The notes beneath the pieces are model-generated. The model was not told the origin of the DNA and made no database searches. It was given only the letters and a program-made list of their open reading frames with translations. Position numbers and translations under genes: made by a program. From NCBI GenBank assembly GCA_019636175.1, contig JAHBYC010000008.1, forward strand, positions 1 to 64,000: a stretch of DNA of 64,000 nt, given 5' to 3'. Shown here piece by piece: positions 20,948 through 38,838 of the stretch. This DNA is from Caulobacter sp. GTDB lineage: Bacteria > Pseudomonadota > Alphaproteobacteria > Caulobacterales > Caulobacteraceae. How positions within the stretch are numbered: the stretch's first letter is position 1; each line of letters begins with the position of its first letter.

Positions 20948-20975
20948 CTTGCGAATCCGCGTGAATTTGTCCGCA

Positions 20976-21009
20976 TTGACGATTTCGGGCCAATAGCTAA
21001 CATGTCAGC
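20976..21009 (+). promoter_or_regulatory. Candidate gntR promoter with overlapping palindromic operator
   Basis: In the 79-bp gap between the divergent uxaA-like and gntR genes, TTGACG (20976-20981) is followed after 16 bp by TAACAT (20998-21003), a plausible sigma-70 pair reading toward gntR. The imperfect palindrome GCTAACATGTCAGC (20996-21009; six of seven arm positions pair) covers the -10. This placement fits autoregulation by the adjacent FCD-type GntR protein and would also control the divergent operon. The sequence is seen; regulator assignment is inferred. Confidence 0.5.
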
Positions 21010-21026
21010 GAGCCGAGGGACAAGAC

Positions 21027-23166: not shown

Positions 23167-23993
23167 AAATCGACTCTCATCAGCATTTCTGGCGGCTGTC
23201 CCGAGGCGACTATGGATGGCTGGACCCGTCATCCGGCCCCATTTATCGCGACTTCCTGCCCGACGACCTTCGGCCGTTGATAGCCGATGCGGGGATTTCA
23301 CGCACCGTGCTGGTACAGGCCGCTCCGAGCGCCGCCGAGACCGCCTTCCTGCTCGAACTGGCGGCGAATGAGCCTTTCGTCGCGGGAGTGGTGGGCTGGA
23401 CCGACCTGGAAGCCCCGGGGGCCGTGGACGAGATCCGGCGGCTGGCCGGACGGCCGGACCTTCTGGGTCTGCGGCCAATGATCCAGGATATTCCCGAGGA
23501 CGACTGGATGCTGCGCCCGTCGCTGGCCCCGGCGCTCGGCGCCATGATTGATGCCGGACTGGCCTTTGACGCCTTGGTGACTCCCCGCCACCTGGCCATT
23601 CTGCGGCGCTTTCTGGACAGCTATCCGGATCTCCGCGTCGTGGTGGATCATGGCGCAAAGCCCGACATCGCCGGCGGCGCCTTCCGGCCATGGGCCGAGG
23701 CCATGGGCCGGATCGCGCGGGAAAGCGCCGCCGTGTGCAAGCTGTCAGGGCTCGTCACGGAGGCGGCGCCAGACTGGACCATGGAGCATCTCCGTCCCTA
23801 CGTCGAACTGCTGCTCGAGACTTTCGGCCCGTCCCGCCTGATGTGGGGCAGCGACTGGCCGGTGCTTAACCTCAACGGTGACTACGCGGGCTGGCGCGCC
23901 GTGGCCGAGGACCTGGTTTCCGGCCTTCCCGAAGCAGATTGCGATCTGATCTTTGGGGGCGTGGCGCGGGCTTTCTATCAACTGGAGCGCTGA
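23163..23993 (+). CDS. Amidohydrolase-family lactonase (L-fuconolactonase-like, COG3618)
   Basis: 276 residues, ATGA overlap with the mutarotase gene. The N-terminal metal-site motif is IDSHQHFWRL; later landmarks are VVVDHGAKP and RLMWGSDWPVLNL, the conserved Asp on the last strand. This subgroup of the amidohydrolase superfamily includes L-fuconolactone, L-rhamnonolactone and 4-sulfomuconolactone hydrolases. In this operon it would open the lactone produced by the aldose dehydrogenase to give the aldonate, the dehydratase substrate. Confidence 0.9.
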   Translation: MKIDSHQHFWRLSRGDYGWLDPSSGPIYRDFLPDDLRPLIADAGISRTVLVQAAPSAAETAFLLELAANEPFVAGVVGWTDLEAPGAVDEIRRLAGRPDLLGLRPMIQDIPEDDWMLRPSLAPALGAMIDAGLAFDALVTPRHLAILRRFLDSYPDLRVVVDHGAKPDIAGGAFRPWAEAMGRIARESAAVCKLSGLVTEAAPDWTMEHLRPYVELLLETFGPSRLMWGSDWPVLNLNGDYAGWRAVAEDLVSGLPEADCDLIFGGVARAFYQLER

Positions 23994-25132: not shown

Positions 25133-25159
25133 GTGCGGGCTCTCAAGAGATGGTCCGTT

Positions 25160-25176
25160 CACCCCTGACCGGGGTG
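25160..25176. terminator. Weak hairpin between convergent genes
   Basis: CACCCC at 25160-25165 pairs with GGGGTG at 25171-25176 around a 5-base loop, 27 bp after the stop of the FAH-fold gene and in front of the convergent TIM-barrel stop. There is no T-run, so it is only a candidate terminator. Confidence 0.3.
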
Positions 25177-25221
25177 GCTGTGGTTGGGCGTCTGGACCCG
25201 ATTGCCGGATCCCGCTCATCT

Positions 25222-26115
25222 CTAGCCGCCGGCGTCGGCGAAGGCCTCCTGTGCGATGCGCCAGAGCGCCTCCGCGTCGGTCCAGCGATCGGACTCTTCC
25301 CGGAGCGCTCCGTCTTCACCTCGAACCTGCCGGGCGTAGTTGATCGTGACCATCCGACCGCCAAACGTGGCATGGTGCGGCAATAGCTCGGCGGCGAAGG
25401 ACAGGACTTCGCCGGGCCCGGCTTCGCTCAGGAAGCCCTGGAAGCAGCGGCGCCACATTTCCCTGAAGTGACCGATCGCCTCACGGTCCGGATCGACCGA
25501 CATGCCGACCTGAATGCAACCGGAGTCGCCGATTCGGCCATGGACGGACCGGACGCGCTGGAACACCGGGGCCAGACGATCCAGCTTGCCGTTGAAATCC
25601 CCGAAGGTCATCTCGAGACCCGTGTACCAGTGCGACAGGTCGGCCGTGAAGCACAGGTCCGGGAACCGCGCCGCCAGATCGATTGTGCGGCGCATATCCT
25701 GGGTCAGCGTGCCGCGATGGGTTTCAAGGTGTAGTGGATGGCCTCGACGTGCGCTGGCCTCAAGCATGTCCTCAACCAGGCGTTCGCCCTCGGGATGCGT
25801 CTCGAAACCATCCCCCAGGTGAACCGTGGTGAACTCGAGACCGAGGTCCGCGCCGCGCCGCGCGACGGCGTCAGCCTCGCCGAGCGACATGATCCGGGCC
25901 AGCCCCGTGGCGCGAAAGCCGGCCTTCAGGAACCGTTCGGGCGCCCAGGACTGGACCGCCTCCACGCCCGCCGCGCGCAAGGCGTCGATGATTTCGGCGA
26001 AATCGGGACCCGGGCCGGCGGACCAGGGGGGCAGGCCCAGGAAGATCGTCTCGTTGATGTCCTTGCGCAGGCGCGGAGCCTTGCAGGCGAGCCCCTGCGG
26101 GCGCCCGGTCGTCAA
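25222..26115 (-). CDS. Xylose-isomerase-like TIM-barrel (AP2Ec) sugar isomerase/epimerase
   Basis: 297 residues. The pattern (FAEIIDALRAAGVEAVQSWA, HPLHLETHRGTL, FCFTADLSHW-type strand, VHGRIGDSGCIQVGM) matches the AP2Ec sugar phosphate isomerase/epimerase superfamily, with Glu and His/Asp on barrel strands for a divalent metal. Such proteins isomerise or epimerise sugars, cleave 3-keto-glycosides or act as C-glycoside deglycosidase subunits. The start overlaps the upstream PhyH stop (ATGA), so the pair forms one operon driven by the operator-containing promoter at 26923-26951. The exact reaction is unknown. Confidence 0.8.
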   Translation of the reverse strand: MTTGRPQGLACKAPRLRKDINETIFLGLPPWSAGPGPDFAEIIDALRAAGVEAVQSWAPERFLKAGFRATGLARIMSLGEADAVARRGADLGLEFTTVHLGDGFETHPEGERLVEDMLEASARRGHPLHLETHRGTLTQDMRRTIDLAARFPDLCFTADLSHWYTGLEMTFGDFNGKLDRLAPVFQRVRSVHGRIGDSGCIQVGMSVDPDREAIGHFREMWRRCFQGFLSEAGPGEVLSFAAELLPHHATFGGRMVTINYARQVRGEDGALREESDRWTDAEALWRIAQEAFADAGG

Positions 26116-26885
26116 AGGCTCTCGGCCGCCGGCGCACGCCCTTTCAGGTCCAGTCCCTGGTTGACGTGCACCTTCCAGGGATAGTGGTCGCCTTCGCCTT
26201 CAACCCCGACCGCGTGAAGGTGGTTTGTCACCGCCTTGCGCCAGCCCCGAGAGGTATTCGCCGTTGTCATGTGCGGGGTCTTGGAATGGTGGAAGGTCAC
26301 CGAACCACGGGCGATCGGGCAGACCACCATGCGGCTCTCGTCCACATCGCAGGTCAGAAGGTCGCTGGCCATGCCCTCGACCCGCCGGTGTTGCAGAATG
26401 CCGTCGAGATGGCCGCGGTCGATGAAATGCATGCAGCCATTGTTGGCGTCGACGTCCTGCAGTGGAATCCAGCAGGTGATGCCCTTGTTATCGAGATTGC
26501 GGCCCCAATAGCCCTCGTCCTGATGCCATTCGGTTGGCACGCTCTTGCCCGGCGGCTTGGCCAGGAACTGGTCGTACCAGAAGGTCATGGGGGTCTGCAT
26601 AAGCGCCGCGCCGAACTCGACGAGCCATTTGCGATAGGCCTGATCGGCGATGTCCTTCCAGACCAGCGACGGCCAGGACTGAACAATGCGGAAGGAGCGG
26701 TTTTCCCGATCCTCGCTCTCGTCCCAGGCCCAGTCAAAGGCCAGCCGCTCCTTGTCGGTGAGGAGGCTCTCGAGCTTGTTCTCGATGAGATCAAGGTCCG
26801 CCTTTGCAATGGCGTTTTCGACCACCAGCCATCCCCGCTCCGCGAAGGCGTCAATCTGTTCCTTTGTGGGTTTTGGGAAGGACAT
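26112..26885 (-). CDS. Phytanoyl-CoA dioxygenase (PhyH)-family 2OG-Fe(II) oxygenase
   Basis: 257 residues. The PhyH-type facial triad is visible: HxD in TEWHQDEGYWG and the distal His in FHHSKTPHMTTANTS, with a following Arg (RGWRKAVTNH) as 2-oxoglutarate ligand. CWIPLQDVDANNGCMHFIDR is a typical PhyH stretch. Family members hydroxylate acyl-CoAs, amino acids or glycosyl and methyl groups in secondary metabolites. Being first in an operon with a sugar TIM barrel and sharing the cluster's operator, it may oxidise a sugar or remove a methyl or alkyl decoration; that is inference. Confidence 0.9.
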   Translation of the reverse strand: MSFPKPTKEQIDAFAERGWLVVENAIAKADLDLIENKLESLLTDKERLAFDWAWDESEDRENRSFRIVQSWPSLVWKDIADQAYRKWLVEFGAALMQTPMTFWYDQFLAKPPGKSVPTEWHQDEGYWGRNLDNKGITCWIPLQDVDANNGCMHFIDRGHLDGILQHRRVEGMASDLLTCDVDESRMVVCPIARGSVTFHHSKTPHMTTANTSRGWRKAVTNHLHAVGVEGEGDHYPWKVHVNQGLDLKGRAPAAESL

Positions 26886-26922
26886 CGGGACCTCGGCGCT
26901 GGCTTATCTCGGCGATGAAAGA

Positions 26923-26951
26923 AAGTTAGTGGTCACAAGGTATTTGGTCAA
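26923..26951 (-). promoter_or_regulatory. Operator A and promoter of the PhyH-TIM barrel operon
   Basis: On the minus strand -35 TTGACC (26946-26951) and -10 TAACTT (26923-26928) are exactly 17 bp apart, 38 bp upstream of the PhyH start. The spacer holds the inverted repeat TTAGTG-GT-CACAAG (26926-26939; two mismatches in the right arm against the cluster consensus), overlapping the -10. A repressor bound here would block the polymerase. The same sequence block recurs at 29564, 32855, 38279 and 38316. Confidence 0.75.
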
Positions 26952-27029
26952 GCCGGTCCGGGTCGTCGATCCGGGAGGGGCTCATGGAGCAAGAGGGTCG
27001 AAGCCGCTCGGGCCCAATGGCGACAAAGG

Positions 27030-27053
27030 GGCGCACGCCTCCGGCCGTGCGCC
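27030..27053 (-). terminator. Hairpin downstream of the transporter operon
   Basis: GGCGCACG (27030-27037) pairs perfectly with CGTGCGCC (27046-27053), loop of 8 bases, 36 bp past the stop of the minus-strand transporter gene; the minus strand then reads CCTTTGTC. It probably ends the PIG-L/transporter transcript before it enters the next operon's promoter. Confidence 0.5.
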
Positions 27054-27088
27054 AACGCGGCGGATGAAACGACGACCAAGGGTCTCGA

Positions 27089-28600
27089 TCACTCCTGCGA
27101 CAGGGCGGCGCCGCGGCGCAGTTCCTCGAGGTTCGCTTCGTGCGTGGCCTGATCAATGCCAAACCGGGAGACGATGAACATCGCGATGATGTTGCCGCCC
27201 ACGATCAGGGGGACGGCGGTAAAGATCAGCCGGTTCATGATCGCCATATCGACCGTTCCGGGAATCGCCTTGGCGGGAAACGCCACCCAGGTCAGAAGCA
27301 GCCCCGCGATGACGGCGCCCAGCGCCGCCCCCCATTTGTCCAGCAGGCCAAAGGCCGCGTAGAGCACCCCTTCAGATCGCAGCCCTGACTTGACCGCGAT
27401 GTCGTCCGCGGCGTCGGCAAGAAGGGAATTGAACATGATGAGGAAGCCGATGGAGAAGGCCACCGCCAGGAAGCCCGACGCGACCAGCAAGGCCAGGAGT
27501 TCATTCGAGCCAACCGGGGGCGTCAGCCCCAGGGCGCGACCGACGAACGGAAGAACGAAGCTGATCGCCCAGCCGAGATAGCAGGCCATGAGAAACGGCT
27601 TCTTGCCGATCCGGGCGGAGATCCGGGGCGCGGCCCACAGCATGATGATCGCCGCAAACGGCGACACGAACAGCACATAGGCCACCTCCTGAGGCTTCAG
27701 AAGCCAGTAGTGCAGGAAGAAATAGGCCTGAAGCCCGAACTGAACACCACCGCCGAAACCGTTCAGAAGCGTCGTGCCCATCAGGAACTGAAGGGGCCGG
27801 TGCGAGAGAATGAAGATCATCTCTTTCGCGGTCTGGCGAAGCGAGGTCTTCCGGGCGGCCGGTATGTGGAGGTGGCGAATTCGACCGTGCGTGGACAGCG
27901 AGGCTGTGATGATCACCACGAAAATGACCACGGCGGCGAAGAGGCCGAACTCTGCGTATCGTTCGCGGTTGAGAGCGCCCAAGGGGTTTGCGGCGTCCTC
28001 GCGCAGGAAGACCTGGAACAGAATGGCGTTCATCGCCGCGGCGCCGCCGTAGATAAAGAAATAGCGCCAGGCGATGAGGGCTGTTCGATCGTGGTAATCG
28101 GGCGCCAGTTCCGGAGCGAGCGCAAGCGACGGTATCTCGTAGAACGAGACGGCGACACGGACAAAGAGCAGCATCCCGACCATGAAGACCAGAAGCCCGG
28201 CCGTCCCAAGGGTCTGAGGCGCATGCCACATCAACACGATGCCGATCGCCGAAGGCAGGGCCGAGGCGTACATCAGAAGGTGCCGGCGGCCCCAACGGCT
28301 GCGCAGATTGTCCGAGAACCGGCCGATCACCGGATCGATGACGCTGTCGACGATGATCGTCAGCGCGAGCGCCATGCCGACCCAGGCCGCGTTCAGCCCG
28401 ATGACCTGATTGAAGTAGAGTTGCAGCACCGAGCCTGAAAGCACGGTCGCCGAGACCCCGTAGGCGAGAGAGCCGAAACCGTAGCCAAGGCGGACGCCGA
28501 AACCGAGCGGCGGGGCCGCCCCGGGCTGTTCCTTGACGGGTTCGCCAAGAGATGCGGTCGGTTGCGGTTCGGATGGGGTGACTTCGAGACCGGCGGTCAA
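27089..28600 (-). CDS. Sugar:cation symporter of the GPH (MelB-like) type, MFS superfamily
   Basis: 503 residues with about 12 hydrophobic helices. GPH signatures: FGSLAYGVSATVLSGSVLQL, TIIVDSVIDPVIGRFSDNLR followed by SRWGRRHLLMY between helices 2 and 3, and DRTALIAWRYFFIYGG in the cytoplasmic region. GPH carriers bring glycosides, glucuronides and pentosides across the inner membrane with Na+ or H+. The first 40 residues are an unusual hydrophilic, Pro/Glu-rich extension. ATGA overlap with the PIG-L gene puts them in one operon, so the imported compound is probably an N-acetylated glycoside. Confidence 0.92.
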   Translation of the reverse strand: MTAGLEVTPSEPQPTASLGEPVKEQPGAAPPLGFGVRLGYGFGSLAYGVSATVLSGSVLQLYFNQVIGLNAAWVGMALALTIIVDSVIDPVIGRFSDNLRSRWGRRHLLMYASALPSAIGIVLMWHAPQTLGTAGLLVFMVGMLLFVRVAVSFYEIPSLALAPELAPDYHDRTALIAWRYFFIYGGAAAMNAILFQVFLREDAANPLGALNRERYAEFGLFAAVVIFVVIITASLSTHGRIRHLHIPAARKTSLRQTAKEMIFILSHRPLQFLMGTTLLNGFGGGVQFGLQAYFFLHYWLLKPQEVAYVLFVSPFAAIIMLWAAPRISARIGKKPFLMACYLGWAISFVLPFVGRALGLTPPVGSNELLALLVASGFLAVAFSIGFLIMFNSLLADAADDIAVKSGLRSEGVLYAAFGLLDKWGAALGAVIAGLLLTWVAFPAKAIPGTVDMAIMNRLIFTAVPLIVGGNIIAMFIVSRFGIDQATHEANLEELRRGAALSQE

Positions 28601-29370
28601 AGGGCGCTCCCGTGGGCTTTGGGCTTGAGCAGCGCCGAACCCAGCAGGCTCTGCAGAAGCGGCGTCACCGGATAGGGGGTGTGGCGGTACTGCCGGAAGC
28701 CCTCGGCGTGTTCGGCTCCGAAAACGTCGCCCTGCTGCCGCGCCCAGGCCTCAAGAGAGGCCTCGAAGTCATCGACGCCGTGCTGCTTGGCGACCCAGGC
28801 CTTCTGGCTGTGATGGCAGGCCAGCATCGCCTTCCTGATGTCCATGACCTCCGAAACCTCGGTCCCGAACTCCGGCTCCACCCTGACGCCGACCCGGTCG
28901 CGTCCTCCCGCCGGGTCGCAGAAGTAGAGATGTGGAATGGCGTCCAGGGCCGGAGCATCGCCGGTGCGGTAATTGGGCACGGGCGCCGCGAAACAGGCGT
29001 CGCGGGCCAGCAGGCTGATCGTCTCGTGATCCGGGTGGTAGTCCACGGGGGACGCGGTGATGACAATATCGGCCCTGACCTCCCGGAGCAGTTCGGTGAC
29101 CCTCCGCCGGGTCGGGTCGTCGTTGAACACGCCAAGGTCCGGCAGTCCGACGCATCGATAGTCGGCGCCGATGATCGCCGCGGCTGCGGCGGCCTCGGAC
29201 TGGCGGATTCCGGCGGTTACGTCCGGTTCGTGTTCCGCGGAGCCGCAGTCACCGGCAGTCGCCGTGGCGATCGTCACCTGATGTCCAAGCCGGGAGAGCA
29301 GCGCCAGACTGCCGGAAGCCAGCATCTCGATATCGTCGGGGTGCGCGTGCAGCGCCAGAATTCTCACCAT
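28597..29370 (-). CDS. PIG-L/LmbE-family zinc-dependent N-deacetylase
   Basis: 257 residues. The Zn-binding AHPDD motif lies near the N-terminus (ILALHAHPDDIEMLASGS) and the third ligand His in SPVDYHPDHETISLLARDA. PIG-L enzymes remove acetyl groups from GlcNAc moieties in glycoconjugates (GlcNAc-PI, mycothiol precursors, diacetylchitobiose). No signal peptide, so it acts in the cytoplasm on material brought in by the co-transcribed GPH-type carrier. It is first in its operon, 185 bp downstream of operator B on the minus strand. Confidence 0.93.
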   Translation of the reverse strand: MVRILALHAHPDDIEMLASGSLALLSRLGHQVTIATATAGDCGSAEHEPDVTAGIRQSEAAAAAAIIGADYRCVGLPDLGVFNDDPTRRRVTELLREVRADIVITASPVDYHPDHETISLLARDACFAAPVPNYRTGDAPALDAIPHLYFCDPAGGRDRVGVRVEPEFGTEVSEVMDIRKAMLACHHSQKAWVAKQHGVDDFEASLEAWARQQGDVFGAEHAEGFRQYRHTPYPVTPLLQSLLGSALLKPKAHGSAL

Positions 29371-29540
29371 GGTCTCAGGGCGCCTCGATCGGGGTCGCGG
29401 GGTCTGCGGCAGGCCGCCGGCTCAATCTGGAAGAGTTGAAAACGCCGAAGGCCATGGGCCCCGATCGGCGGATGCGGCAGCGGGTCAAGACAGGCCCCTC
29501 GGCGAAACTAGGGTCTTGGGCATGGTTCGAGGCTCGGCGC

Positions 29541-29589
29541 TTGACCAGGGGTGTTCAAGAAAGTTAGTGGTCACTAGGTAATCGGTCAA
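29541..29589. promoter_or_regulatory. Operator B in overlapping divergent promoters (PIG-L and GH116 operons)
   Basis: Minus strand: -35 TTGACC (29584-29589), 17 bp, -10 TAACTT (29561-29566), reading toward the PIG-L operon. Plus strand: TTGACC (29541-29546), 17 bp, TTAGTG (29564-29569) as a weak -10, reading toward GH116. The operator TTAGTG-GT-CACTAG (29564-29577) sits over both -10 regions, so one bound repressor could silence both directions. The minus-strand core is nearly identical to operator A over 25 bp. Confidence 0.75.
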
Positions 29590-29600
29590 GGAGGTGTGAT

Positions 29601-32033
29601 GTGACCTCGGAAGGACGCTGTTTGAGCTATTCCGGCGCGACCGCCGAGCGCGTGGCGTTTCCGATGGGCGGTCTTGGCGCCGGCATGGTGTGCCTGTCCG
29701 GAACCGGTGCGCTCACAGCTGTTTCGGTGCGCAACGCGCCTGCCTTGCTCAATGAGCCGTTCATGTTCGGCGCGGTGCGTTGGTCCTCTTCCAGCGGCGA
29801 CGGCGCCCGCGTGCTGGAAGGGCCGGTTCCAGCATGGAAGCTCACCTTTCCTTGGCCGGACTCTACCGGCACCGGTCGAGGTCAGCAGGGAAAGACATTT
29901 GGGCTGCCCCGCTTTCCCGGCAGCAGATTCGAACCCCGCTTCCCGTTCGCCCGCCTTGAGCTCGACCCTTGCGAGGGTCCGCTACGCTGTCGTCTCACGG
30001 GCTGGAGTCCGTTCGCGCCCGGGGATGCGGAGGCGTCGAGCCTTCCCGTCGCCGCCATCGAGTACGAATTCGAGAACCACGCCCGGGAACGGGTCGAGGT
30101 CATCTTTTCGTTTCATGCGCGCAACTTCATGCGGATCGCCGGCGCCGAAGGCGCGGCGGGCGTCGACGCGTCCGGAGGCATGGTCCGCCTCTGGCAAGCG
30201 GGAAGTGGCGAGAGGCCCGAACAGGACGGCGCCTTCACCATTGCCTGCGACGCCGCCGAGACCATTGCCAGCGCCCGCTGGTTCCGCGGAGGCTGGTGGG
30301 ATCCGGTCACCGATCTTTGGCGCGGCGTCGCAGAGGGGCGGACGCCACCGGCGGGGTCGCATGAGGCCGGCGAGCCCAGCGACGGCGGCAGTCTCTACGT
30401 CCCCTTCAGCCTGGAGGCCGGCGAGACCCGGCGTGTTCGGCTACAGCTGTCCTGGTTCGTCCCCCGAACGTCGCTGCGTCGGGGCGCCGGTCCGTTCGAT
30501 CCGAAGGGCCGTACGGACGGAACAGAGACCCATGTGCCCTGGTATGCCGCGAAGTTCACAGATGCGGAGGCGTTGGCCAGGTTCTGGGCCGATCAAATTG
30601 ACAGGTTGCGGGAACGGTCCGAAACCTTCGCGGCCTGCCTCGCCGAACAGGCATTGCCCCCGGAAATCAAGGACGCCGTCTCCGCGAACCTGACCATTCT
30701 GAAGTCCCCGACGGTGGAGCGTCAGGCTGACGGTCGGCTGTTCATGTGGGAGGGTTGCGCGGACAACGAGGGAAGTTTCGAGGGCTCCTGCACCCACGTC
30801 TTCAATTACGCCCAGTCGATCGCCCACCTGTTCCCGGCTCTCGAGCGATCGCTCCGGGAGACAGAATTCTTTGATAACCAGGATGACACTGGTCACCAGA
30901 ACTTCCGAGCCCAGCTTCCCATCCGACCCAATCCCCGGCGGGCGAGAGCCGCCGCCGACGGCCAGCTGGGTGGTATCGTCAAGGCCTACCGCGACTGGCG
31001 CATAGGCGGCGATGAGGCCTGGCTCCGCCGGCTGTGGCCACGCATCGTCGCCAGTCTGGACTATGCCATTCGGACCTGGGACCCCGAAGAGGCCGGCTGG
31101 CTGACCGAGCCCCATCACAATACCTACGACATTGAGTTCTGGGGTCCCGACGGCATGGCCGGGACAATCTATCTCGCCGCGCTTCGGGCCGCCGCGGAGA
31201 TGGCGCGGGCGCTCGGAGAGCCAGGCGACCGCTACGGCGCCCTCGCGGACAAGGCGGTGGCCCGCCTGGAGGGCGAGCTCTTCAACGGCGAATACTTCCA
31301 CCAGAAGGTGCTCTGGGACGACCGCGCCCTTGAGGGCGAGATGTCGGCGGAGTCCAGGGAGAGCGTCCGGCGCGAGGGTCCCAAGTACCAATACGCCGGC
31401 GGCTGTCTTTCCGACGGCGTCGTGGGTGAATGGCTGGCACAGGCGTCTAGCCTCGAAACCGGCCTGGATTCCGGCAAGGTCGCCTCGCACCTGCGAGCCG
31501 TCCATCGCTACAACTTTCGGGCCTCACTGCGCGATCACGCCAATCCCCAGCGCCCCGCCTATGCGCTCGGCGATGAGGCCGCATTGCTTCTCTGCAGCTG
31601 GCCCCGGGGCGATGCGCCCCATTTCCCCTTTGTCTACAGCGACGAGGCCTGGACAGGCATCGAGTATCAGGTCGCCGCTCACCTCATCCGCCATAAAGAG
31701 GTCGCCGCCGGACTGGAAATCGTGCGCGCCGCAAGGGCTCGATACGATGGTCGCGTCCGCAATCCCTTCAGCGAATTCGAATGGGGCCATTGGTACGGAC
31801 GGGCGATGTCGTCCTGGTCGCTGTTGCAGGCCATGACCGGCCAGGACTACGACGCGCGCACCCGCTGCCTCACGCTCGCACCCGCCGTTCCGGGAGACGT
31901 TTCGGCCCTGCTGGCCACCGAGCGCGGCTATGGCCTGGTCGGCGTTCGCGATGGTGAGCCTTTCGTCGATGTCCGCGAGGGAACCATAGGCATCGACCGG
32001 CTGGAATTCCGTCCCTACCGGGACGCGCCGTGA
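29601..32033 (+). CDS. GH116-family glycoside hydrolase (GBA2-like beta-glycosidase)
   Basis: 810 residues from GTG with AAGGAGG 6 bp upstream. No signal peptide. The N-terminal beta domain starts with FPMGGLGAGMVCLSGTG; the C-terminal (alpha/alpha)6 domain contains the family landmarks FNYAQSIAHLFPALERSLRE, GIVKAYRDWRIGGDEAWLRR, HNTYDIEFWGPDG, a CLSDGVVGEW motif that resembles the acid/base Asp region (here Asp605), and YSDEAWTGIEYQVAAHLI. GH116 retaining enzymes cleave beta-glucosides, beta-xylosides or beta-GlcNAc. I cannot pin the nucleophile without an alignment. First gene of a four-gene operon with NagB-like, Gfo/Idh and kinase genes. Confidence 0.88.
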   Translation: MTSEGRCLSYSGATAERVAFPMGGLGAGMVCLSGTGALTAVSVRNAPALLNEPFMFGAVRWSSSSGDGARVLEGPVPAWKLTFPWPDSTGTGRGQQGKTFGLPRFPGSRFEPRFPFARLELDPCEGPLRCRLTGWSPFAPGDAEASSLPVAAIEYEFENHARERVEVIFSFHARNFMRIAGAEGAAGVDASGGMVRLWQAGSGERPEQDGAFTIACDAAETIASARWFRGGWWDPVTDLWRGVAEGRTPPAGSHEAGEPSDGGSLYVPFSLEAGETRRVRLQLSWFVPRTSLRRGAGPFDPKGRTDGTETHVPWYAAKFTDAEALARFWADQIDRLRERSETFAACLAEQALPPEIKDAVSANLTILKSPTVERQADGRLFMWEGCADNEGSFEGSCTHVFNYAQSIAHLFPALERSLRETEFFDNQDDTGHQNFRAQLPIRPNPRRARAAADGQLGGIVKAYRDWRIGGDEAWLRRLWPRIVASLDYAIRTWDPEEAGWLTEPHHNTYDIEFWGPDGMAGTIYLAALRAAAEMARALGEPGDRYGALADKAVARLEGELFNGEYFHQKVLWDDRALEGEMSAESRESVRREGPKYQYAGGCLSDGVVGEWLAQASSLETGLDSGKVASHLRAVHRYNFRASLRDHANPQRPAYALGDEAALLLCSWPRGDAPHFPFVYSDEAWTGIEYQVAAHLIRHKEVAAGLEIVRAARARYDGRVRNPFSEFEWGHWYGRAMSSWSLLQAMTGQDYDARTRCLTLAPAVPGDVSALLATERGYGLVGVRDGEPFVDVREGTIGIDRLEFRPYRDAP

Positions 32034-32860
32034 TCCCGGTCGAGACCCTTGCGACGCCAGCGGCGATTGGCGAGCGGCTGGCCCGGGACATCCTGGCCGG
32101 CCTGGACCGCGCCGGGAAGGCGGGCGGTCGCTTTGTCCTGGGATGCCCGGCGGGCCGTACGCCCTTGCCTGTCTACCGGGCTTTGGCGGAAGCCGCGCGA
32201 ACACGTGATCTGGCGCGGCTCCACCTGATCCTGATGGACGAGTTTGTGGAGGATGACGGGGGGACTTGGCGGCGCGTTCCCGCGAGCGCGCACCACAGCT
32301 GCGCCGGTTTCGCCGTCCGTCATCTCCTTGACCCCCTTCCGGGGATTCCGCGCGCCAACCTTCATGTTCCCGATCCGCGGGCGCCAGGGGACTACGAGGC
32401 GTTGATCGGAGACCTCGGCGGCATCGACCTCTTCCTTCTGGCGAGCGGGGCCACCGACGGTCACGTCGCGTTCAATCCTCCCGCCACATCGCTTCAAAGC
32501 AATACGCGCATCGTCGCCCTGGCCAAAGAGACCCGCGAGGACAACCTCTCCACCTTCCCGAGCTTCGCATCGCTGGGGGACGTGCCGACCCACGGGGTGA
32601 GCATCGGGCTGGGGACCATCGTTCGTCATTCCCGCGCTGCCGTAATGATGCTGCACGGGTCGCACAAGGGATCGGCCCTGGCCCGCCTGCGTCAGGCGGA
32701 AGGCTTTTGCGAGGCCTGGCCAGCAAGCGTCATCTTCGCCTGTCGAAACCCCCGGATCATCGTGGATCAGGCCGCGGCGCTGGCCGCGGAGGTTGTCGCG
32801 GTCGTCGAGAGACCGGCCGGACGTTCCGGAATTCCACAAGCGCATTGTCAAGACACTTAG
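32030..32860 (+). CDS. NagB/glucosamine-6-phosphate-deaminase-like sugar isomerase with altered active site
   Basis: 276 residues from a GTG overlapping the GH116 stop (GTGA). NagB-like landmarks: LGCPAGRTPLPVYRAL (phosphate/sugar loop), HLILMDEFVED (Asp of the MDEY motif) and GATDGHVAFNPPATS for the GNDGHIAFNEPxS loop. The Asp and His of the Asp141-His143-Glu148 ring-opening triad of E. coli NagB are kept, but the Glu148 position is Pro. The protein may therefore be a weakened deaminase, or act on another aldose or amino sugar. It sits with a BadF-type sugar kinase two genes on and a deacetylase across the divergent promoter, a logic of deacetylation, phosphorylation and deamination. Confidence 0.82.
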   Translation: MIPVETLATPAAIGERLARDILAGLDRAGKAGGRFVLGCPAGRTPLPVYRALAEAARTRDLARLHLILMDEFVEDDGGTWRRVPASAHHSCAGFAVRHLLDPLPGIPRANLHVPDPRAPGDYEALIGDLGGIDLFLLASGATDGHVAFNPPATSLQSNTRIVALAKETREDNLSTFPSFASLGDVPTHGVSIGLGTIVRHSRAAVMMLHGSHKGSALARLRQAEGFCEAWPASVIFACRNPRIIVDQAAALAAEVVAVVERPAGRSGIPQAHCQDT

Positions 32861-32873
32861 TGACCACTAAGTG
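32845..32873 (+). promoter_or_regulatory. Operator C and internal promoter before the Gfo/Idh gene
   Basis: Plus strand: TTGTCA (32845-32850), 17 bp, TAAGTG (32868-32873), 22 bp upstream of the next start. The spacer and -10 carry the longest copy of the cluster operator, ACTTAGTG-AC-CACTAAGT (32855-32872), with perfect 8-bp arms. It overlaps the stop codon of the NagB-like gene. Same -35/operator/-10 geometry as copies A and B, so the Gfo/Idh and kinase genes can be transcribed separately. Confidence 0.75.
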
Positions 32874-32894
32874 ATCTATCAGCAGGAGACCTCC

Positions 32895-34067
32895 GTGCAT
32901 CAGCGCAAAAAACACCGGATTGGCGTCATCGGCCTCGGAATGCGGCTCGGCATGCTGCTACGCGCCGCCAGGGCCGAGGGCTGGGATTTCGACCTTGCCG
33001 GCTATTCGGACCCCGATCCCGTCGGCCTCCCCCTCCTCGCCGAACAGGGGATCGACGCCGGCCGCCCCTATCCGGACATTCAGGCGCTGCTGGCCGACGG
33101 CGCCTACGATCTGGTGATGATAGGATCGCCCAATCACCTGCATCTTCAGCATCTCAAGGAGACCCTGGAGGGCCATTCCGGTCTCGTCTTCATCGAAAAG
33201 CCGATCGTCCGGACGGAAGAGGAATCCTTCGAGGCGGCCCGTCTGATACGGCAGCACGGAAAGGACCGGGTTCTGGTCGGCCTCGTGGCGCGCTCCGCCC
33301 CCATCGTGCGGACCGCGATGGAACGCCTCGACGCCAACGTAATCGGCGACATCATTTCCATCGACGCCACCGAACACCTGCCGCCGGCGCACGGCGCCTA
33401 CCTGGCCAGGAACTGGCGGCGGCGCGCCGAATGGGGCGGGTCCTACATGCTCGACAAGGTCTGCCATGACTTCGACATCCTGGGCCGAATGGTGGGCGCC
33501 CGGCCGGTTCGCGTGGCCAGCTTCGGCGGCCGTCGAATCTTCAATGCGGAGGCGGTGGGGCAATCTCGCGATGAGGGGCCGGCGATCCTCCGTCGCCTGT
33601 CCGGCTGGAACGCGGCGCCCGACATCAGCGGTGCGGACATGGATGTGACGGACCACCAGGTCGCCATCGTCGAATATGCCAACGGGGTGCGGCTGTCCTT
33701 CCATTCCAATACCAGCGCGGCCGCGCCGGAGCGTCGCTGGAACCTGGTCGGCCGGGCCGGCACGCTGACCATCGACCTTGTGCAGAACACCCTGGTGATC
33801 ACCCCGCTGGAGGCTCGTGGAACGGTCGAACAGCTGCGCTGGCGCGGACCGCCCGGCGATTCCCACGGCGGCGCCGATCAGGCGATGGCGCGTGACCTGG
33901 TGGCCGCGCTGGACGGCGAGCGGGCGTTTCCGGTGTCAGTGACGGATTCACTTGTCGCGGGTCTCACCGTGATGGCGATTGACCGGGCCCTTGACGAAGA
34001 GCGCATCGTCGATTGCGCCTCGCTCTGGACCCGGCTGGACGCCGCCGAAGCCGGGGAGGCCACGTGA
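32895..34067 (+). CDS. Gfo/Idh/MocA-family oxidoreductase
   Basis: 390 residues. I take the GTG at 32895 (AGGAGA 6 bp upstream) rather than the earlier in-frame GTG at 32871, which lies inside operator C. The N-terminal Rossmann fold starts RIGVIGLGMRLGMLLRAA; the signature EKP is in GLVFIEKPIVR, followed by the C-terminal alpha/beta domain (RNWRRRAEWGGSYMLDKVCHDFDIL) where Lys and the HDFD His/Asp fit the usual catalytic positions. Family members oxidise or reduce sugars, often C3 of a glycoside, with NAD(P). Here it may make a 3-keto intermediate or process a released monosaccharide. Confidence 0.9.
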   Translation: MHQRKKHRIGVIGLGMRLGMLLRAARAEGWDFDLAGYSDPDPVGLPLLAEQGIDAGRPYPDIQALLADGAYDLVMIGSPNHLHLQHLKETLEGHSGLVFIEKPIVRTEEESFEAARLIRQHGKDRVLVGLVARSAPIVRTAMERLDANVIGDIISIDATEHLPPAHGAYLARNWRRRAEWGGSYMLDKVCHDFDILGRMVGARPVRVASFGGRRIFNAEAVGQSRDEGPAILRRLSGWNAAPDISGADMDVTDHQVAIVEYANGVRLSFHSNTSAAAPERRWNLVGRAGTLTIDLVQNTLVITPLEARGTVEQLRWRGPPGDSHGGADQAMARDLVAALDGERAFPVSVTDSLVAGLTVMAIDRALDEERIVDCASLWTRLDAAEAGEAT

Positions 34068-34999
34068 GGTCGATGTCGTCATGCGTGATCGGCATCGACG
34101 CCGGCGCCACCAAGACCGCCGCTGTCGCCGAGACTCTGGATGGCCGCCTTCTGGACCGGCTACGCACGGGTCCCAGCGCGATCGTTGGCTTGCCGGATGC
34201 CCGCGCCTTGTCGGTGCTTCGCGACATCGTGGACCGGCTTGCGCCCCGGCGTGAAGCGCTCGCCCACATTACGATCGGCCTCAGCGGTGTCGATTTCGCC
34301 GAAGAGCAACCGGAACAGCACCGCCGGGTGGCCGAAGGGATTGGTGTGCCAGGAGACCGGCTCCTGCTGGTCAATGACAGCCTGGTGGCCCTGGCGGGGG
34401 CGGCGAAGAGCGATAGGACCACGCTTGTCCAGCACGGCACCGAGGTCACGATGGCCTGGCGGCCGCGCGTCGGCGATGAAAGCGTTTTTGACAGCGTCGG
34501 CATCGCCGACTGCTTTGACCTTCGGCTCAGGACGGTGCCGTTGGTCGCCCGCATGCTGGATGGAAGGGCGCGCGTCACGTCGTTGAAGGATCGTGTGCTC
34601 GCCCATTGCGGCGTCGACGCCAGGAGTTTTCCTCGGTGGGTGATCCGGGATCCTGGCGCGCGGGAGCGGATTCTGCAGTTGGCGCCGGTCGTGTTCGAGG
34701 CCTGGCAGTTCGGCGACGCCGCCGCCGCCCAGCTCGTGGAGTCCGCGGTCGAGGACTATGTCACCGCAACGGTGGCGATGGCGGACCGGCTTGGCCCGGG
34801 CGCCTTCGACGCCTGCTTTGGCGGAGGGACGATAGGCCAAGGCGGAAAGAAGCTGCTTTCCCTGATCGCTGAGCGACTGAGCCATCGCCGCCCTGACGCA
34901 AGCCTCGCCCTGCCTGCCCGGCCTCCCGAAGAGGGCGCGCTCATTCTGGCCCGCCGCGCCGCGGACGTGGCCGCGGTCGTTCAGGGGGCATTACGATGA
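34064..34999 (+). CDS. BadF/BadG-type ASKHA sugar kinase (N-acetylglucosamine-kinase-like)
   Basis: 311 residues from a GTG that overlaps the oxidoreductase stop (GTGA) and has GGGGAGG upstream; an ATG three codons on is the alternative. ATPase motifs: phosphate-1 loop VIGIDAGATKTAAVAETLDG split at GATKT, ITIGLSGVDFAEEQ, phosphate-2-like LVNDSLVALAGA, and a late Gly-rich FGGGTIGQGGKKLL. The BadF/BadG fold covers GlcNAc and glucosamine kinases of bacteria. The linker-1 region QHGTEVTMAW replaces the more usual GTGS. Last gene of the GH116 operon, ended by a strong hairpin. Confidence 0.82.
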   Translation: MRSMSSCVIGIDAGATKTAAVAETLDGRLLDRLRTGPSAIVGLPDARALSVLRDIVDRLAPRREALAHITIGLSGVDFAEEQPEQHRRVAEGIGVPGDRLLLVNDSLVALAGAAKSDRTTLVQHGTEVTMAWRPRVGDESVFDSVGIADCFDLRLRTVPLVARMLDGRARVTSLKDRVLAHCGVDARSFPRWVIRDPGARERILQLAPVVFEAWQFGDAAAAQLVESAVEDYVTATVAMADRLGPGAFDACFGGGTIGQGGKKLLSLIAERLSHRRPDASLALPARPPEEGALILARRAADVAAVVQGALR

Positions 35000-35016
35000 C
35001 CGCGAAGCGGTCATCG
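34994..35016. terminator. Perfect 10-bp hairpin after the kinase gene
   Basis: CGATGACCGC (34994-35003) pairs fully with GCGGTCATCG (35007-35016) around a GAA loop, overlapping the kinase stop codon and lying before the convergent TetR gene. No T-run follows, so it may act as a structure-dependent terminator for the GH116 operon. Confidence 0.55.
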
Positions 35017-35094
35017 ACGCAAGGGGCGTAAGCCGTATGAGGCATGGTGCGGGCGATGCGGTTTCATCATGTCGCGCTCCGACCCGGCCGGCTC

Positions 35095-35724
35095 TCAGGC
35101 CAGAATTCGCGCCTGCATATGGCCGATGAAATAGCGCATTACCTCGGCCATCGAGATACGTCCGTCACTGAGCAGCCACTGCAGCCGCAGGCCGTCCAGC
35201 GTGGCGATCATCAAAGCCGCTTCCATGAGAGGATCGAAATCCTGACGGAAGACACCAGCTTGCCGGCCGGCCTCGAACGAACGCACAAGCCGCTTGCGGA
35301 AGGTCTCGTAGCGCCCTTTGAAATATTCGTTGAATTCGGACCCGGCCTCCAGATGCTCGGCCGACATCAGCACGTCGAGGGCGGTAAGAACCGGATCGTC
35401 TTCCAGGACTTTTCCGAATTCCGCCCATGAGGCGATGTAGTTGGCGTCCGCGGTGTCCAGGTCGCCCGCCATGCGGGTTTCCTGTTCCCGGTCAGTTTCC
35501 TCGAGCACCGCCAGCAGAAGCGCGCTCTTGTTGGGAAAGTGATAGAGCAGGCCGGCGTCGGTGATGCCGATCTCTTCGGCAAGCATGGCCAGGCTGGTGC
35601 CCCTGAAGCCGCGCTGGGCAAACAGCTTTCGCGCACCCTTCAGGATTTCCGCGCGGCGCTTGCGGCCTCGCGGCTGGCGTGTTCCGGGTGCGGAAGGATG
35701 GCCTTCGCGTGAGCCTTCAATCAT
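35095..35724 (-). CDS. TetR-family transcriptional regulator
   Basis: 209 residues. The N-terminal HTH is RRAEILKGARKLFAQRGFRG followed by TSLAMLAEEIGITDAGLLYH and FPNKSALLLAVL, a standard TetR DNA-binding head; residues about 75-205 form the ligand domain. An N-terminal basic tail (GTRQPRGRKRRAE) may add minor-groove contacts. It is the only regulator inside the 25-38 kb locus, between the glycosidase operon and the TonB receptor, and so the best candidate to bind the five TTAGTG-N2-CACTAA sites. Its own upstream region has no copy of the motif, so it would not be autoregulated. Confidence 0.93.
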   Translation of the reverse strand: MIEGSREGHPSAPGTRQPRGRKRRAEILKGARKLFAQRGFRGTSLAMLAEEIGITDAGLLYHFPNKSALLLAVLEETDREQETRMAGDLDTADANYIASWAEFGKVLEDDPVLTALDVLMSAEHLEAGSEFNEYFKGRYETFRKRLVRSFEAGRQAGVFRQDFDPLMEAALMIATLDGLRLQWLLSDGRISMAEVMRYFIGHMQARILA

Positions 35725-35795
35725 CTACAAACCTTGCGCGAACTCTCGGACGGACGCCAGAGGCGACGCAAATTATACCTTTAGCGGCGGAGAAG

Positions 35796-35824
35796 GGCGA
35801 TGAGGCCTGGCCGGCCTCATCGCC
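35796..35824 (-). terminator. Strong 12-bp hairpin downstream of the TonB receptor
   Basis: GGCGATGAGGCC (35796-35807) pairs perfectly with GGCCTCATCGCC (35813-35824), loop TGGCC, starting 31 bp after the receptor's stop on the minus strand; the strand then reads CTTCTCC. It separates the receptor transcript from the TetR gene. Confidence 0.65.
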
Positions 35825-35854
35825 AAGTTCGCCGGGGAGGTGGCCGGCGCCGCC

Positions 35855-38107
35855 CTAGAAGTCGATATCGAAGCTCACACCGATCGTGCGGACCGAGTTG
35901 TAGTTCCACGACTGCAGGATGGCCGTGGGGTCGGCGGTGATGTGGGACAGGAAGCTCGGTACGTACTCATCAGTGCAATTCTTGCAGAACAGTGAGGCCT
36001 TGTAGCGATCACCGAACCGATAGGTCAGGCTGGCGCCGAAAACGTCCACGCCGCCCAGGGCTGTGCCGGGGTCGCCGTTGGGCGAGAAATTGACGCTGGA
36101 GCGCCGGAACCAGTTGGCCTCAAGGCTCAGCAGATTGTCGCCGACCGGGATTTCATAGATGGCCTGGAGGGTGGAGGTGAACTTCGGCGCCCCGGCCGGC
36201 GCCAGGCCCTTGGCCTGGAACTGACCGGCGACACAGCCCTGGGCCACCGTCTGCCCCGGATAGCAGGTGGTGATGAAATCGGTGAACTCGCTGTCGGTGA
36301 AGCTGGCGCCGAAATTGATCGTCAACTGCTCGGTCGGCCGGGCCGCGCCGTCGATTTCGATGCCCTTGGCGCGAACCCCGCCGGCGTTGGTCAGGCGGAA
36401 AAGCGCCGCCACCGGATCGTAGGTCTGGGTCTGGAAGTCGCTGAACTCCTCATAGAAGCCTGACACATTGAAGCGAAGCCGGCCGTCAAACAGCGTCGAG
36501 CGGAGCCCGGCCTCAAGGTCCTCGACGGTCTCGGGAGCGATGTAGGGGTCGAAGGCGGTGGAGCCGAGATTTTGCGGGTAGGCCGGTCCCTTGTAACCCG
36601 TCGCGTAGGTCAGATAGGCCATGACGTCGGGCGTGAACTGGTACTGAGCGCCAATCTTGTAGCTGAAGTTGGTGTTGGACTCGCTGAACTTGAAGTTTCC
36701 TTGCGGTCCATAGAGCCCGGGCCCATTCACATAGGTCCCGAAATCCTGGGCGATATCCACCTTGACCTTGTCGTAGGTCAGGCGACCTCCGGCCAGCAGC
36801 GTCAGGTCGTCGGTGACGTGGAAGTTCACCTGACCGAAGGCGGCCGTGCTGGCCGTAGTGTTACGGGTCGAGAAGTCGCCCCCGTAGAAGTTGGGGATGC
36901 CCGAGCCGAAGTTTGCGTAGAGTTGCGTATGGCCGTTGTTCACCGATCCGAAATAGTAGAGCCCGACCTGCCCATCGACCCGATCAAAGTCGAAGGCCAG
37001 ACGCAGTTCCTCCGATAGCTGCCGGTTATTGGACCCGTTCGTATTGGTGTTGAACAGATCCAGGGTCGAGTAGTCGGTGTCCAGGTTCAGCTGAAGATCG
37101 TAGCGCCGCCAGGCGAGGATGTTCGAGATCGTCAGGTTCGGCGACAGCTTGTGAGAGACGTTCAGTGACACCCCATAGGTGTCCACGCTGCGGTAGTCGC
37201 CGGACGCCGAGTCGATCCCGTATTGCAGGTTCCGGGGGCCCGCCGTCGCGCCGATGCTGGCCAGGGAGCCCGAATAGACGCCGGCGCCGACGGTCCGCAG
37301 AGTCCTGTCCCAGATTCCACCGACGCCGCGTTCACGACTGTAGTCGGCCGTTGCATAGATGGAGGTGGCGTCCGTGGGCTCCCAAAGATATTTCACCCGG
37401 GCCGCGATGCGTTCCTGGGTCTGGTCGACCTGGGCGCCGGGCGGCGAGGTCACGGTCGCCTTCGCGATGGGGTCCTGGCTCGAGGCAAGCACGTTGACCC
37501 GCAGCGCGGAGGTCTCGGTCAACGGCATGTTCAGCGTGCCGCGCAGGACGATGCCGCGGTTCCCGCCGGCCGCCGTGTCCCTGTTGTCGTACTCGCCTCC
37601 GACCGTGCCGCTGGTTTCGCCCAGACGAGGCCGGTTGGTGACCACGTTCAGCAGCCCGGCCGACGCATTGCGGCCGAACAGAAGGCCCTGCGGACCGCGG
37701 AGGACCTCTACCCGGGCGACATCGTTGAAAACGCCGTTGCTCTGGAACAGCGGCACGCCGAGCGAGACATCGTCGACCATCACACCAACGCTCGAGTCGA
37801 CGGTTGGCAGGAAGATGTTGCTCCCGATGCCTCTCAGCGAAAAGGCGTTGTCCGTCGTGGTCTGAAAGCTTGGCGAAACCAGCTGGAGCTGGCTGAAGTC
37901 ATTGAGCTTGCGGGCTTCCAGTTCCTCGCCGCCGATCGCCGTGACGGCGACCGGAACCTTCTGCAGGTTCTGTTCGACGCGCTGGGCGGTGACGATCACC
38001 TCTTCCACGGTCGGGCCGCCCTCGGTCGCCGGCGCGGCCCAGGATGCCGAGGCTCCCGCCACACCGACGAAGGCCACCCCGATCAGCAATGCTTGCTTCG
38101 TAGTCAT
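35855..38107 (-). CDS. TonB-dependent outer-membrane receptor of the carbohydrate locus
   Basis: 750 residues. Signal peptide MTTKQALLIGVAFVGVAGAS with cleavage near SWA-AP, TonB-box-like EEVIVTAQR, then the plug domain (KVPVAVTAIGGEELEARKLN, FSLRGIGSNIFL, VEVLRGPQGLLFGRNASAGL, a canonical plug signature) and the 22-strand barrel ending in a terminal aromatic (VSFDIDF). This is the Caulobacter/sphingomonad-type receptor commonly used for oligosaccharides, aromatics and siderophores. The upstream region carries two operator copies, so it belongs to the same regulon as the glycosidase and transporter and is the likely entry port of the substrate. Confidence 0.93.
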   Translation of the reverse strand: MTTKQALLIGVAFVGVAGASASWAAPATEGGPTVEEVIVTAQRVEQNLQKVPVAVTAIGGEELEARKLNDFSQLQLVSPSFQTTTDNAFSLRGIGSNIFLPTVDSSVGVMVDDVSLGVPLFQSNGVFNDVARVEVLRGPQGLLFGRNASAGLLNVVTNRPRLGETSGTVGGEYDNRDTAAGGNRGIVLRGTLNMPLTETSALRVNVLASSQDPIAKATVTSPPGAQVDQTQERIAARVKYLWEPTDATSIYATADYSRERGVGGIWDRTLRTVGAGVYSGSLASIGATAGPRNLQYGIDSASGDYRSVDTYGVSLNVSHKLSPNLTISNILAWRRYDLQLNLDTDYSTLDLFNTNTNGSNNRQLSEELRLAFDFDRVDGQVGLYYFGSVNNGHTQLYANFGSGIPNFYGGDFSTRNTTASTAAFGQVNFHVTDDLTLLAGGRLTYDKVKVDIAQDFGTYVNGPGLYGPQGNFKFSESNTNFSYKIGAQYQFTPDVMAYLTYATGYKGPAYPQNLGSTAFDPYIAPETVEDLEAGLRSTLFDGRLRFNVSGFYEEFSDFQTQTYDPVAALFRLTNAGGVRAKGIEIDGAARPTEQLTINFGASFTDSEFTDFITTCYPGQTVAQGCVAGQFQAKGLAPAGAPKFTSTLQAIYEIPVGDNLLSLEANWFRRSSVNFSPNGDPGTALGGVDVFGASLTYRFGDRYKASLFCKNCTDEYVPSFLSHITADPTAILQSWNYNSVRTIGVSFDIDF

Positions 38108-38278
38108 GTCTCTTCCCCTTTCTGCGGATCGGTCCGTTGTCTGGCACGATCCATTCTGGCCAGGGCTGCTCCCCCCTGGTTTCGGTCGTTTCTGACGGCG
38201 GGGCTCGGGCCTTCAGGAGCTTCTTGACGGCTCCGCATCTCCCAAAAATACGCTCCCACACTACGCCGCTTCGAATTT

Positions 38279-38329
38279 CTAGAGGTCACTAGGTAAATCG
38301 ACTTGGAAAAAAAATCTAGTGACCACTAA
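38279..38329 (-). promoter_or_regulatory. Operators D1 and D2 upstream of the TonB receptor
   Basis: D1 is CTAGAG-GT-CACTAG (38279-38292) and D2 is CTAGTG-AC-CACTAA (38316-38329); centres are 37 bp apart, about 3.5 helical turns. Read on the minus strand, D1 aligns with copies A and B (TACCTAGTGACC core) followed by a -10-like TAGAAA, about 170 bp upstream of the receptor start. D2 has the opposite orientation of the core and an adjacent A-tract (38307-38314). The pair would allow cooperative or looping repression. The rest of 38108-38600 holds no gene I can support. Confidence 0.7.
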
Positions 38330-38600
38330 AAATTAAACGCGCACCACCGTCGCGGCCTCTGGCGGGGAGCAAGAGCGGGAAGAAGCAGGGCCAGCGCCGG
38401 AACAGGTCACGGCGCGGCGCCCTGCGGACCACGGCCGTTCGCCGAAGGGCCGGGTCAAGAGCTTCCGGGCGGAGTCCCTGTCTGGGGCGCGATTCCGGAC
38501 GCGTAAGGCCGTGCCCGACCCGTTGCAGAGGGCGGCAGCCGAAGTGAAACGGAAAGCGGGAAAGCAGGAGCTGAGGAATCAGCAGCTTGACGGATTTAGA

Positions 38601-38690
<90 letters not shown>

Positions 38691-38838
38691 ATATCGGTGT
38701 CGGAGCCAGCCTTGCGGGAGGCCCCTAGAGCGAAGGCGCGGAACCTAGCGATGCGGCCCGCAAATCGCAAGCGCCTTTGCGCGGCGACGGAAAGGGCGGG
38801 AAAATCCGTGGAACCGGCAGGTGTTCAACGAGGACCGC

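Follow-up and report, generated by a model that had tools for sequence, protein, structure and literature searches.

Positions 1 to 64,000 of contig JAHBYC010000008.1 from Caulobacter sp. (assembly GCA_019636175.1), referred to below as the window, carry a sugar locus in which five copies of one palindrome, YTAGTG-N2-CACTAR, each with at most one mismatch, lie in promoter regions. We consider it very probable (about 0.9, judged from sequence) that these five sites, named A to E, are the operators of a TetR-family repressor encoded at 35095-35724 in the same locus. A preliminary description of this DNA had read the five sites as one regulon, with the TetR protein as the best candidate binder. 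All five were recovered; A, B, D and E lie where that description placed them, but C starts at 32857 and not at 32855, two bases away. The single-regulon interpretation is supported by conservation of the sites, their confinement to the locus and their co-occurrence with the TetR gene. The choice of binder is supported by this co-occurrence over 390 genomes, by related sites near distant TetR orthologs and by a palindrome upstream of a 36% homolog. Coordinates are collected in Table 1.

The statistical weight of the five sites depended on how strictly the motif was defined. With up to three mismatches to TTAGTGNNCACTAA, the five occurrences in the window were not significant (100 shuffles gave a mean of 3.3, and 24 of them reached five). 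With YTAGTGNNCACTAR, a consensus written after the sites had been seen, and at most one mismatch, five occurrences compared with a mean of 0.02 and a maximum of 1 in 100 first-order shuffles. A matrix was also trained on sites from four other genomes and then scored on the held-out window. The five sites obtained 19.3 to 26.9 bits, the next score being 9.7 bits (overlapping C) and the following one 6.0 bits; it is this gap of about 10 bits that gives the test its strength. The genome of origin (3,172,269 bases, 86.9% complete) was then scanned with up to two mismatches to TTAGTGNNCACTAA. Six places were found, namely A, B, C and E together with C20:10186 and C43:6141, operator D falling outside this count with its three mismatches. 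Both additional places are within long open frames, and at this stringency the motif is intergenic only at the sugar locus, which bears out the earlier claim that the sites are confined to its promoter gaps.

The distribution of the motif among genomes (designated here by G numbers) follows that of the TetR gene. Orthologs were sought in a family set of 390 genomes, own genome included, at an E threshold of 1e-20 and with the best few candidates per genome scored; G890 and Caulobacter sp. SLTY were treated as one and counted once. The TetR protein had an ortholog in 13 of the 390: four close ones (own, G890 at 94%, G938 at 85% and G937 at 79% identity) and nine forming a second clade at 53-59%. 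G170, from another family of the same order, encodes a protein of 78% identity, the only one among 60 genomes of that family. Wider draws, again including the own genome, gave 4 of 299 genomes of the order (1e-14) and 2 of 385 of the class (1e-17), the class search adding a single match (G512, 31%) with no site within two mismatches nearby. A scan of genome contigs returned one true ortholog, that of SLTY, and two distant matches without sites (up to two mismatches), and a plasmid search returned 15 records, all below 60% identity.

Exact copies of YTAGTGNNCACTAR were present in seven of the 390 genomes, and four of these are exactly the genomes with a close TetR. In those four all copies are at the locus (three in the own genome, four each in G890 and G938, two in G937). 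The four of G938 amount to three distinct sites, since two of them, each located at a contig end (C112 and C119), share flanks; both contigs carry locus genes. The other three genomes have one exact copy each, one in a 701-residue frame and two in short CTAGTGG/CCACTAG runs, and none of 19 window proteins used as queries, among them TetR, had a match around these stray copies (8.9-16 kilobases (kb) each). Thus at least two exact sites occur in 4/4 genomes with a close TetR and in 0/386 others, nine of which belong to the second clade. G950 encodes a GH116 protein of 46-54% identity, is not among the family TetR matches and gave no high-scoring site over 32 kb; GH116 alone therefore does not carry the motif. 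Looser scans (two mismatches to TTAGTGNNCACTAA, seven chosen genomes) had a large background in some, with 46 places in G050, 59 in G302, 25 in G059 and 18 in G295, which has a one-mismatch place (C7:245266) away from its TetR locus. In G170 the three one-mismatch places are all at the locus and three two-mismatch places are elsewhere.

Comparison of orthologous loci, a check suggested in the preliminary description, was carried out. Four other clusters were found that combine this TetR with GH116, Gfo/Idh, kinase and receptor genes, and each of them has the motif. Thus neither of the findings named beforehand as telling against the regulon, many unrelated genome hits or orthologous clusters without the motif, was obtained. 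SLTY keeps all five site positions, three of them exactly TTAGTGNNCACTAA, including the counterpart of operator A (0 mismatches). The GH116-side counterpart of operator B, as well as that of operator C, is present in four other genomes. The tandem pair D/E is spaced by 37 base pairs (bp) in the window and in SLTY and by 36 in G938. Gene order changes between these loci: in G170, G937 and G938, GH116 diverges from PhyH and not from PIG-L. The rearranged locus of G170 has four sites, before the TonB receptor, the transporter, the Gfo/Idh-kinase unit and between GH116 and PhyH, and TetR is followed in both G170 and G937 by a different MFS transporter (30-31%), whose gene is preceded by a site of its own.

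Promoter anatomy was read in part by eye. At A, B and C the geometry is as previously stated, with TTGACC or TTGTCA separated by 17 bases from TAACTT or TAAGTG, and the -35 element is conserved in relatives. Operator A lies between its -35 and TAACTT and overlaps the latter. In five genomes, TTGACC precedes the site by 12 bases in 7/7 operators directed to PhyH or PIG-L, and by 23 bases in 5/5 directed to GH116; the Gfo/Idh element is TTGTCA in four of five genomes and TTGCCA in the fifth. Operator C also shares the final four bases of the NagB-like frame. Two details needed revision. Operator B does belong to the promoter of the PIG-L-transporter unit, as proposed, but this promoter is bidirectional and serves GH116 too. 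As to the alignment of about 29 bp between A, B and C, the A and B copies in SLTY have 35 uninterrupted identical bases in common, and part of the likeness is therefore probably due to common descent. In the window and in SLTY, A and B resemble two copies of one divergent GH116/PhyH-type promoter.

Related sites accompany the more distant TetR proteins. The orthologs at 53-59% and one homolog at 36% have variant sites such as CTAGYGATCRCTAG. Eighteen matches to YTAGYGNNCRCTAR (up to one mismatch) were counted in the nine second-clade regions, against 2.65 expected and a maximum of 5 in 20 shuffles; every region contributes one or more, and the match at G881, 27836, at least, appears unrelated. 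In all eight regions with a BadF-kinase match, the aligned 5' end of the kinase gene has a site no more than about 65 bp away; no kinase match was obtained for the G919 region. Because these alignments mostly begin near query residue 25, the true kinase start may be nearer to the site or overlap it, as seems to be the case in G976. Tandem pairs with a spacing of 21-22 bp can be seen in G919, G940 and G881; G923 and G935 have them too, the second site being weak there. In addition, G940, G881 and G942 carry weaker sites in the gap that separates TetR from a divergent TonB receptor gene. The one annotated region, G942, encodes a BadF kinase, a GH4 protein, a YdjC-like protein, an MFS_2 transporter, a sulfatase, a TonB receptor and the TetR protein. 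In G002, the gene of the 36% homolog is preceded, 21 bases upstream of its start codon, by ACCTTACCTAGCGATCACTAGGTAAGGT, a near-perfect 28-bp palindrome (13 of 14 pairs). It occupies 2047-2074 of locus L008, the site inside it scores 20.7 bits, and a GH1 gene lies beyond TetR on the same strand; palindrome, TetR and GH1 form a possible one-site relative of the TetR regulon. A palindromic candidate operator at promoters of the regulator's own or neighbouring genes is thus found by sequence in G002, in G940, G881 and G942, and at the receptor-TetR pair of the window. The segment TDAGLLYHFP, which we take to be the TetR recognition region from knowledge of the family, is identical in 14/14 aligned orthologs and reads TDAGLLHHFG in the G002 protein.

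From the sites, their confinement to the locus, their conservation, their co-occurrence with TetR and the placement of the -35 elements, all of which are seen by sequence, we infer binding, repression, autoregulation and an inducer. A TetR dimer would bind the palindrome of about 14 bp. At A, B and C, which lie between the -35 and the transcription start, the bound repressor would block RNA polymerase and keep four units shut: PhyH-TIM, PIG-L-transporter, GH116-NagB-like and Gfo/Idh-kinase. Operator B alone would shut two back-to-back promoters. The tandem pair D/E would control the TonB receptor, and also the TetR gene if transcripts read through. An inducer derived from the imported glycoside would then release the repressor.

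Several observations weigh against this interpretation. The matrix test is not fully independent, because its training sites were picked by likeness to the consensus, and these include a doubled stretch of G938. When the window was shuffled 30 times, the top matrix score averaged 10.6 bits and one shuffle reached 20.6; a lone site near 20 bits is therefore no proof. The 18 second-clade matches were counted with a pattern chosen after a first look at those regions. The close clade comprises just five known loci, some of them from near relatives, and the genome counts are therefore not independent and do not amount to 390 separate trials. Among 29 loci around more distant TetR proteins, a high-scoring site was found in G002 only, and no site within two mismatches was found in the stretches examined around the 28-32% homologs of G302, G512 and Demequina. 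As to promoters, the proposed -10 elements TAACTT and TAAGTG match TATAAT at just three and two of six positions, respectively, and a strict sigma-70 scan of 25000-38700 returned no promoter. Compared with its counterpart in SLTY, operator A is the weaker site. A clear -35 is missing at D and E, which makes repression there less certain.

Other binders were considered, since the binding protein cannot be told from the motif alone. The preliminary description mentioned a GntR/FCD protein (21027-21713), a DNA-binding regulator of the same neighbourhood whose module adjoins the regulon in G890, G938 and G170 too. We find its binding to A-E extremely unlikely, as this module has a different palindrome, GCTRACATGTYAGC or near, in 4/4 loci having the module. 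In the window it occurs once (up to three mismatches), at 20996, and it lies upstream of GntR there as well as in G890 (CTAACATGTCAG) and G170 (GCTAACATGTTAGC); in G938 the like palindrome (GCTGACATGTTAGC) is between the reductase and dehydratase genes, GntR being elsewhere in the module. Moreover, the nine second-clade regions each have a TTAGTG-like site but gave no GntR match in the stretches fetched, and G937 has the sites with no GntR match in its 32-kb stretch, to which the search was limited.

Sugar regulons are often under LacI proteins, and a LacI-type or other factor encoded elsewhere could in principle read the sites. This seems very unlikely: such a factor would need to track exactly the family genomes with a close TetR and to change in parallel with the TetR of the second clade, and the palindrome just upstream of the G002 homolog's own start points to TetR. 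That the palindromes have no regulatory function, being chance occurrences or copies of a small repeat, has an extremely small likelihood. The longer stretch common to A and B, one of which is probably a duplicate, would fit a repeat, but it is not shared by C, D and E, the sites stay before transcription units despite changed gene order, and the held-out scores set them apart by about 10 bits. Control by the local TetR protein accounts best for these observations.

Table 1. Operators, promoter elements and genes of the sugar locus (positions in the window; scores in bits obtained with the window held out).
Feature	Position	Strand	Remarks
Operator A, TTAGTGGTCACAAG	26926..26939		PhyH-TIM promoter; 19.3 bits
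Operator B, TTAGTGGTCACTAG	29564..29577		bidirectional promoter, PIG-L-MFS (-) and GH116-NagB-like (+); 24.5 bits
Operator C, TTAGTGACCACTAA	32857..32870		before Gfo/Idh-BadF kinase; 26.9 bits
Operator D, CTAGAGGTCACTAG	38279..38292		upstream of TonB-dependent receptor, 37 bp from E; 21.1 bits
Operator E, CTAGTGACCACTAA	38316..38329		upstream of TonB-dependent receptor; 24.9 bits
Palindrome GCTAACATGTCAGC, proposed GntR operator, not of the TetR regulon	20996..21009		between dehydratase gene and GntR gene
-35 TTGACC, PhyH promoter	26946..26951	-	17 bases from TAACTT (26923-26928)
-35 TTGACC, PIG-L promoter	29584..29589	-	proposed -10 at 29561-29566
-35 TTGACC, GH116 promoter	29541..29546	+	left half of operator B at proposed -10
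-35 TTGTCA, Gfo/Idh promoter	32845..32850	+	proposed -10 at 32868-32873; read by eye
Conserved protein, earlier labelled TIM barrel	25222..26115	-	no Pfam/NCBIfam match; 65-83% in four other loci
PhyH-family dioxygenase	26112..26885	-	PF05721 2.4e-25
GPH-type sugar transporter (MFS_2)	27089..28600	-	PF13347 5e-72; TIGR00792 under its cut-off
PIG-L family N-deacetylase	28597..29370	-	PF02585 1.2e-25
GH116, like exo-beta-D-arabinofuranosidase ExoMA2	29601..32033	+	PDB 8ic6 6.3e-105
NagB/6-phosphogluconolactonase-like protein	32030..32860	+	PF01182 4.7e-15; after GH116, same strand
Gfo/Idh/MocA oxidoreductase	32871..34067	+	PF22725, PF01408
BadF-type sugar kinase	34013..34999	+	PF01869 2e-09; nearest solved structure a MurNAc/GlcNAc (N-acetylmuramic acid/N-acetylglucosamine) kinase, 8zo3 1.6e-10
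TetR-family repressor, proposed binder of A-E	35095..35724	-	PF00440 1.4e-15 (57.2 bits against a cut-off of 24), PF13977 1e-08
TonB-dependent receptor	35855..38107	-	PF00593, PF07715; same strand, upstream of TetR

The families given earlier for the PhyH, PIG-L-transporter, GH116, Gfo/Idh-kinase and TonB receptor genes were all matched (Table 1), but the NagB-like gene after GH116 had been omitted. The TetR protein has the N-terminal helix-turn-helix domain of its family (PF00440). The label TIM barrel for the 25222-26115 protein could not be confirmed, its only matches in the PDB having E values of 0.44 and 1. The Gfo/Idh start is possibly the in-frame GTG at 32895, because 32871 directly follows operator C.

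The GH116 assignment held and can be refined. Among solved structures the closest match is ExoMA2, the best glucosylceramidase reaching only 6.3e-08. In ExoMA2, according to its description (PMC10509167), Glu431 and Asp557 are catalytic, and His446 and Arg483 mark the difference from beta-glucosidase and take part in substrate recognition. These align with E384, D510, H399 and R436 of the window protein, the residues having been matched by hand count with a numbering offset of 4 deduced from the fit of all four. The protein thus resembles an exo-beta-D-arabinofuranosidase (subfamily 4, ExoMA2 type), and for this reason the locus probably uses D-arabinofuranosides. The expected substrate is a glycoside from which the GH116-like enzyme would release beta-D-arabinofuranose; this sugar may be linked to an amino sugar on which the deacetylase and the kinase would act. 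In E. coli NagB the catalytic residues are Asp72, Asp141, His143 and Glu148. The first three are conserved in the NagB-like protein and Glu148 is replaced by Pro, and glucosamine-6-phosphate deaminase was not assigned. This missing residue speaks against the amino-sugar route, as does the lack of a PIG-L match in the G170 and G937 regions, and the route is uncertain on both counts. YdjC-like proteins are deacetylases. The inducer is guessed to be amino-sugar-derived because the kinase recurs in 8/9 second-clade regions and a YdjC-like gene in the annotated one.

Next to the regulon, a module at 17949-25132 encodes an aldehyde dehydrogenase, a UxaA/GarD-type dehydratase, GntR, an aldo/keto reductase, an amidohydrolase and an FAH protein. 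The held-out matrix found no TetR site in it, and GCTAACATGTCAGC is likely to be the GntR operator of this adjacent sugar-acid module. The module itself probably encodes an oxidative pathway for D-arabinose or L-fucose. A dehydratase of FAH type is also reported for D-arabinose, according to the title of a study. The D-arabinonate dehydratase of Herbaspirillum huttiense is placed in the UxaA/GarD superfamily in PMC6336799. The module is like the non-phosphorylative D-arabinose pathway of that organism in having a UxaA/GarD-type dehydratase, an FAH protein and dehydrogenases, but by family names L-fucose is an equally possible substrate.

In three genomes (window 38601-38690, L066 7096-7171, L057 9388-9463), the 3' end of a tRNA gene points towards the receptor side of the locus. 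The tRNA differs each time, being Ser (CGA), Lys (CTT) and Thr (CGT), which suggests old insertions at tRNA genes. No tRNA-end repeat longer than 11 bases was found in the sequence examined, none of the five integrase-family matches of the own genome is on the window contig, and the stretches of G938 and G937 that were searched yielded no tRNA.

A broader proposal is tentative and, in our opinion, rather doubtful: the TetR protein might belong to a new Caulobacterales regulator group that reads CTAGYG-N2-CRCTAG and senses a kinase-dependent amino-sugar glycoside, and that in the window clade governs a TonB-fed system for stripping and using D-arabinofuranose-bearing glycans, passed from species to species as a movable block beside tRNA genes. 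In open-access literature, no TetR sugar or D-arabinan regulator matching this system was recognised from titles and the beginning of abstracts, 12-base forms of the operator core retrieved just mouse-cell work, and among the top matches for both half-sites together nothing was recognised as bearing on the system.

The closest enzymatic parallel is the D-arabinan cluster of Microbacterium arabinogalactanolyticum. The window GH116 is nearest to ExoMA2 and keeps the four key residues described for it, and a GH172-family gene (DUF2961) stands beside the GntR module in G938. G937 has four GH172-family genes, one of which is located some 5 kb past PhyH; the own genome, at its 86.9% completeness, yielded none. 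The endo-D-arabinanase GH183 (DUF4185) was found in 0/6 genomes by a search without positive control. Import would differ, relying in the window on the TonB receptor and a GPH-type symporter, whereas an ABC transporter is proposed for the Microbacterium cluster in PMC10509167.

Regulation is best compared with GusR (UidR), which PMC9881133 describes as the glycoside-induced repressor of the E. coli glucuronide operon, acting at two upstream operators. Both would be TetR-type repressors of glycoside utilisation with a glycosidase and a transporter, but in the window there are five sites, spread across some 11 kb, together with a TonB receptor and different enzymes. The two proteins are distant relatives, the window TetR matching UidR chain 6ayi only weakly (4.3e-06); it may work like GusR and is not classified as one. 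Altogether, the system is of a known kind, being a local regulon in which a TetR protein would govern the use of glycosides, comparable to GusR in E. coli, and is otherwise a textbook case. Less usual is that a TetR protein governs a TonB-fed, D-arabinofuranoside-type locus. A regulator, an operator and a gene set are thus offered for an exo-beta-D-arabinofuranosidase-like locus in a Gram-negative bacterium, and the TetR orthologs with their matching operator variants form a natural series for the study of repressor-site co-change.

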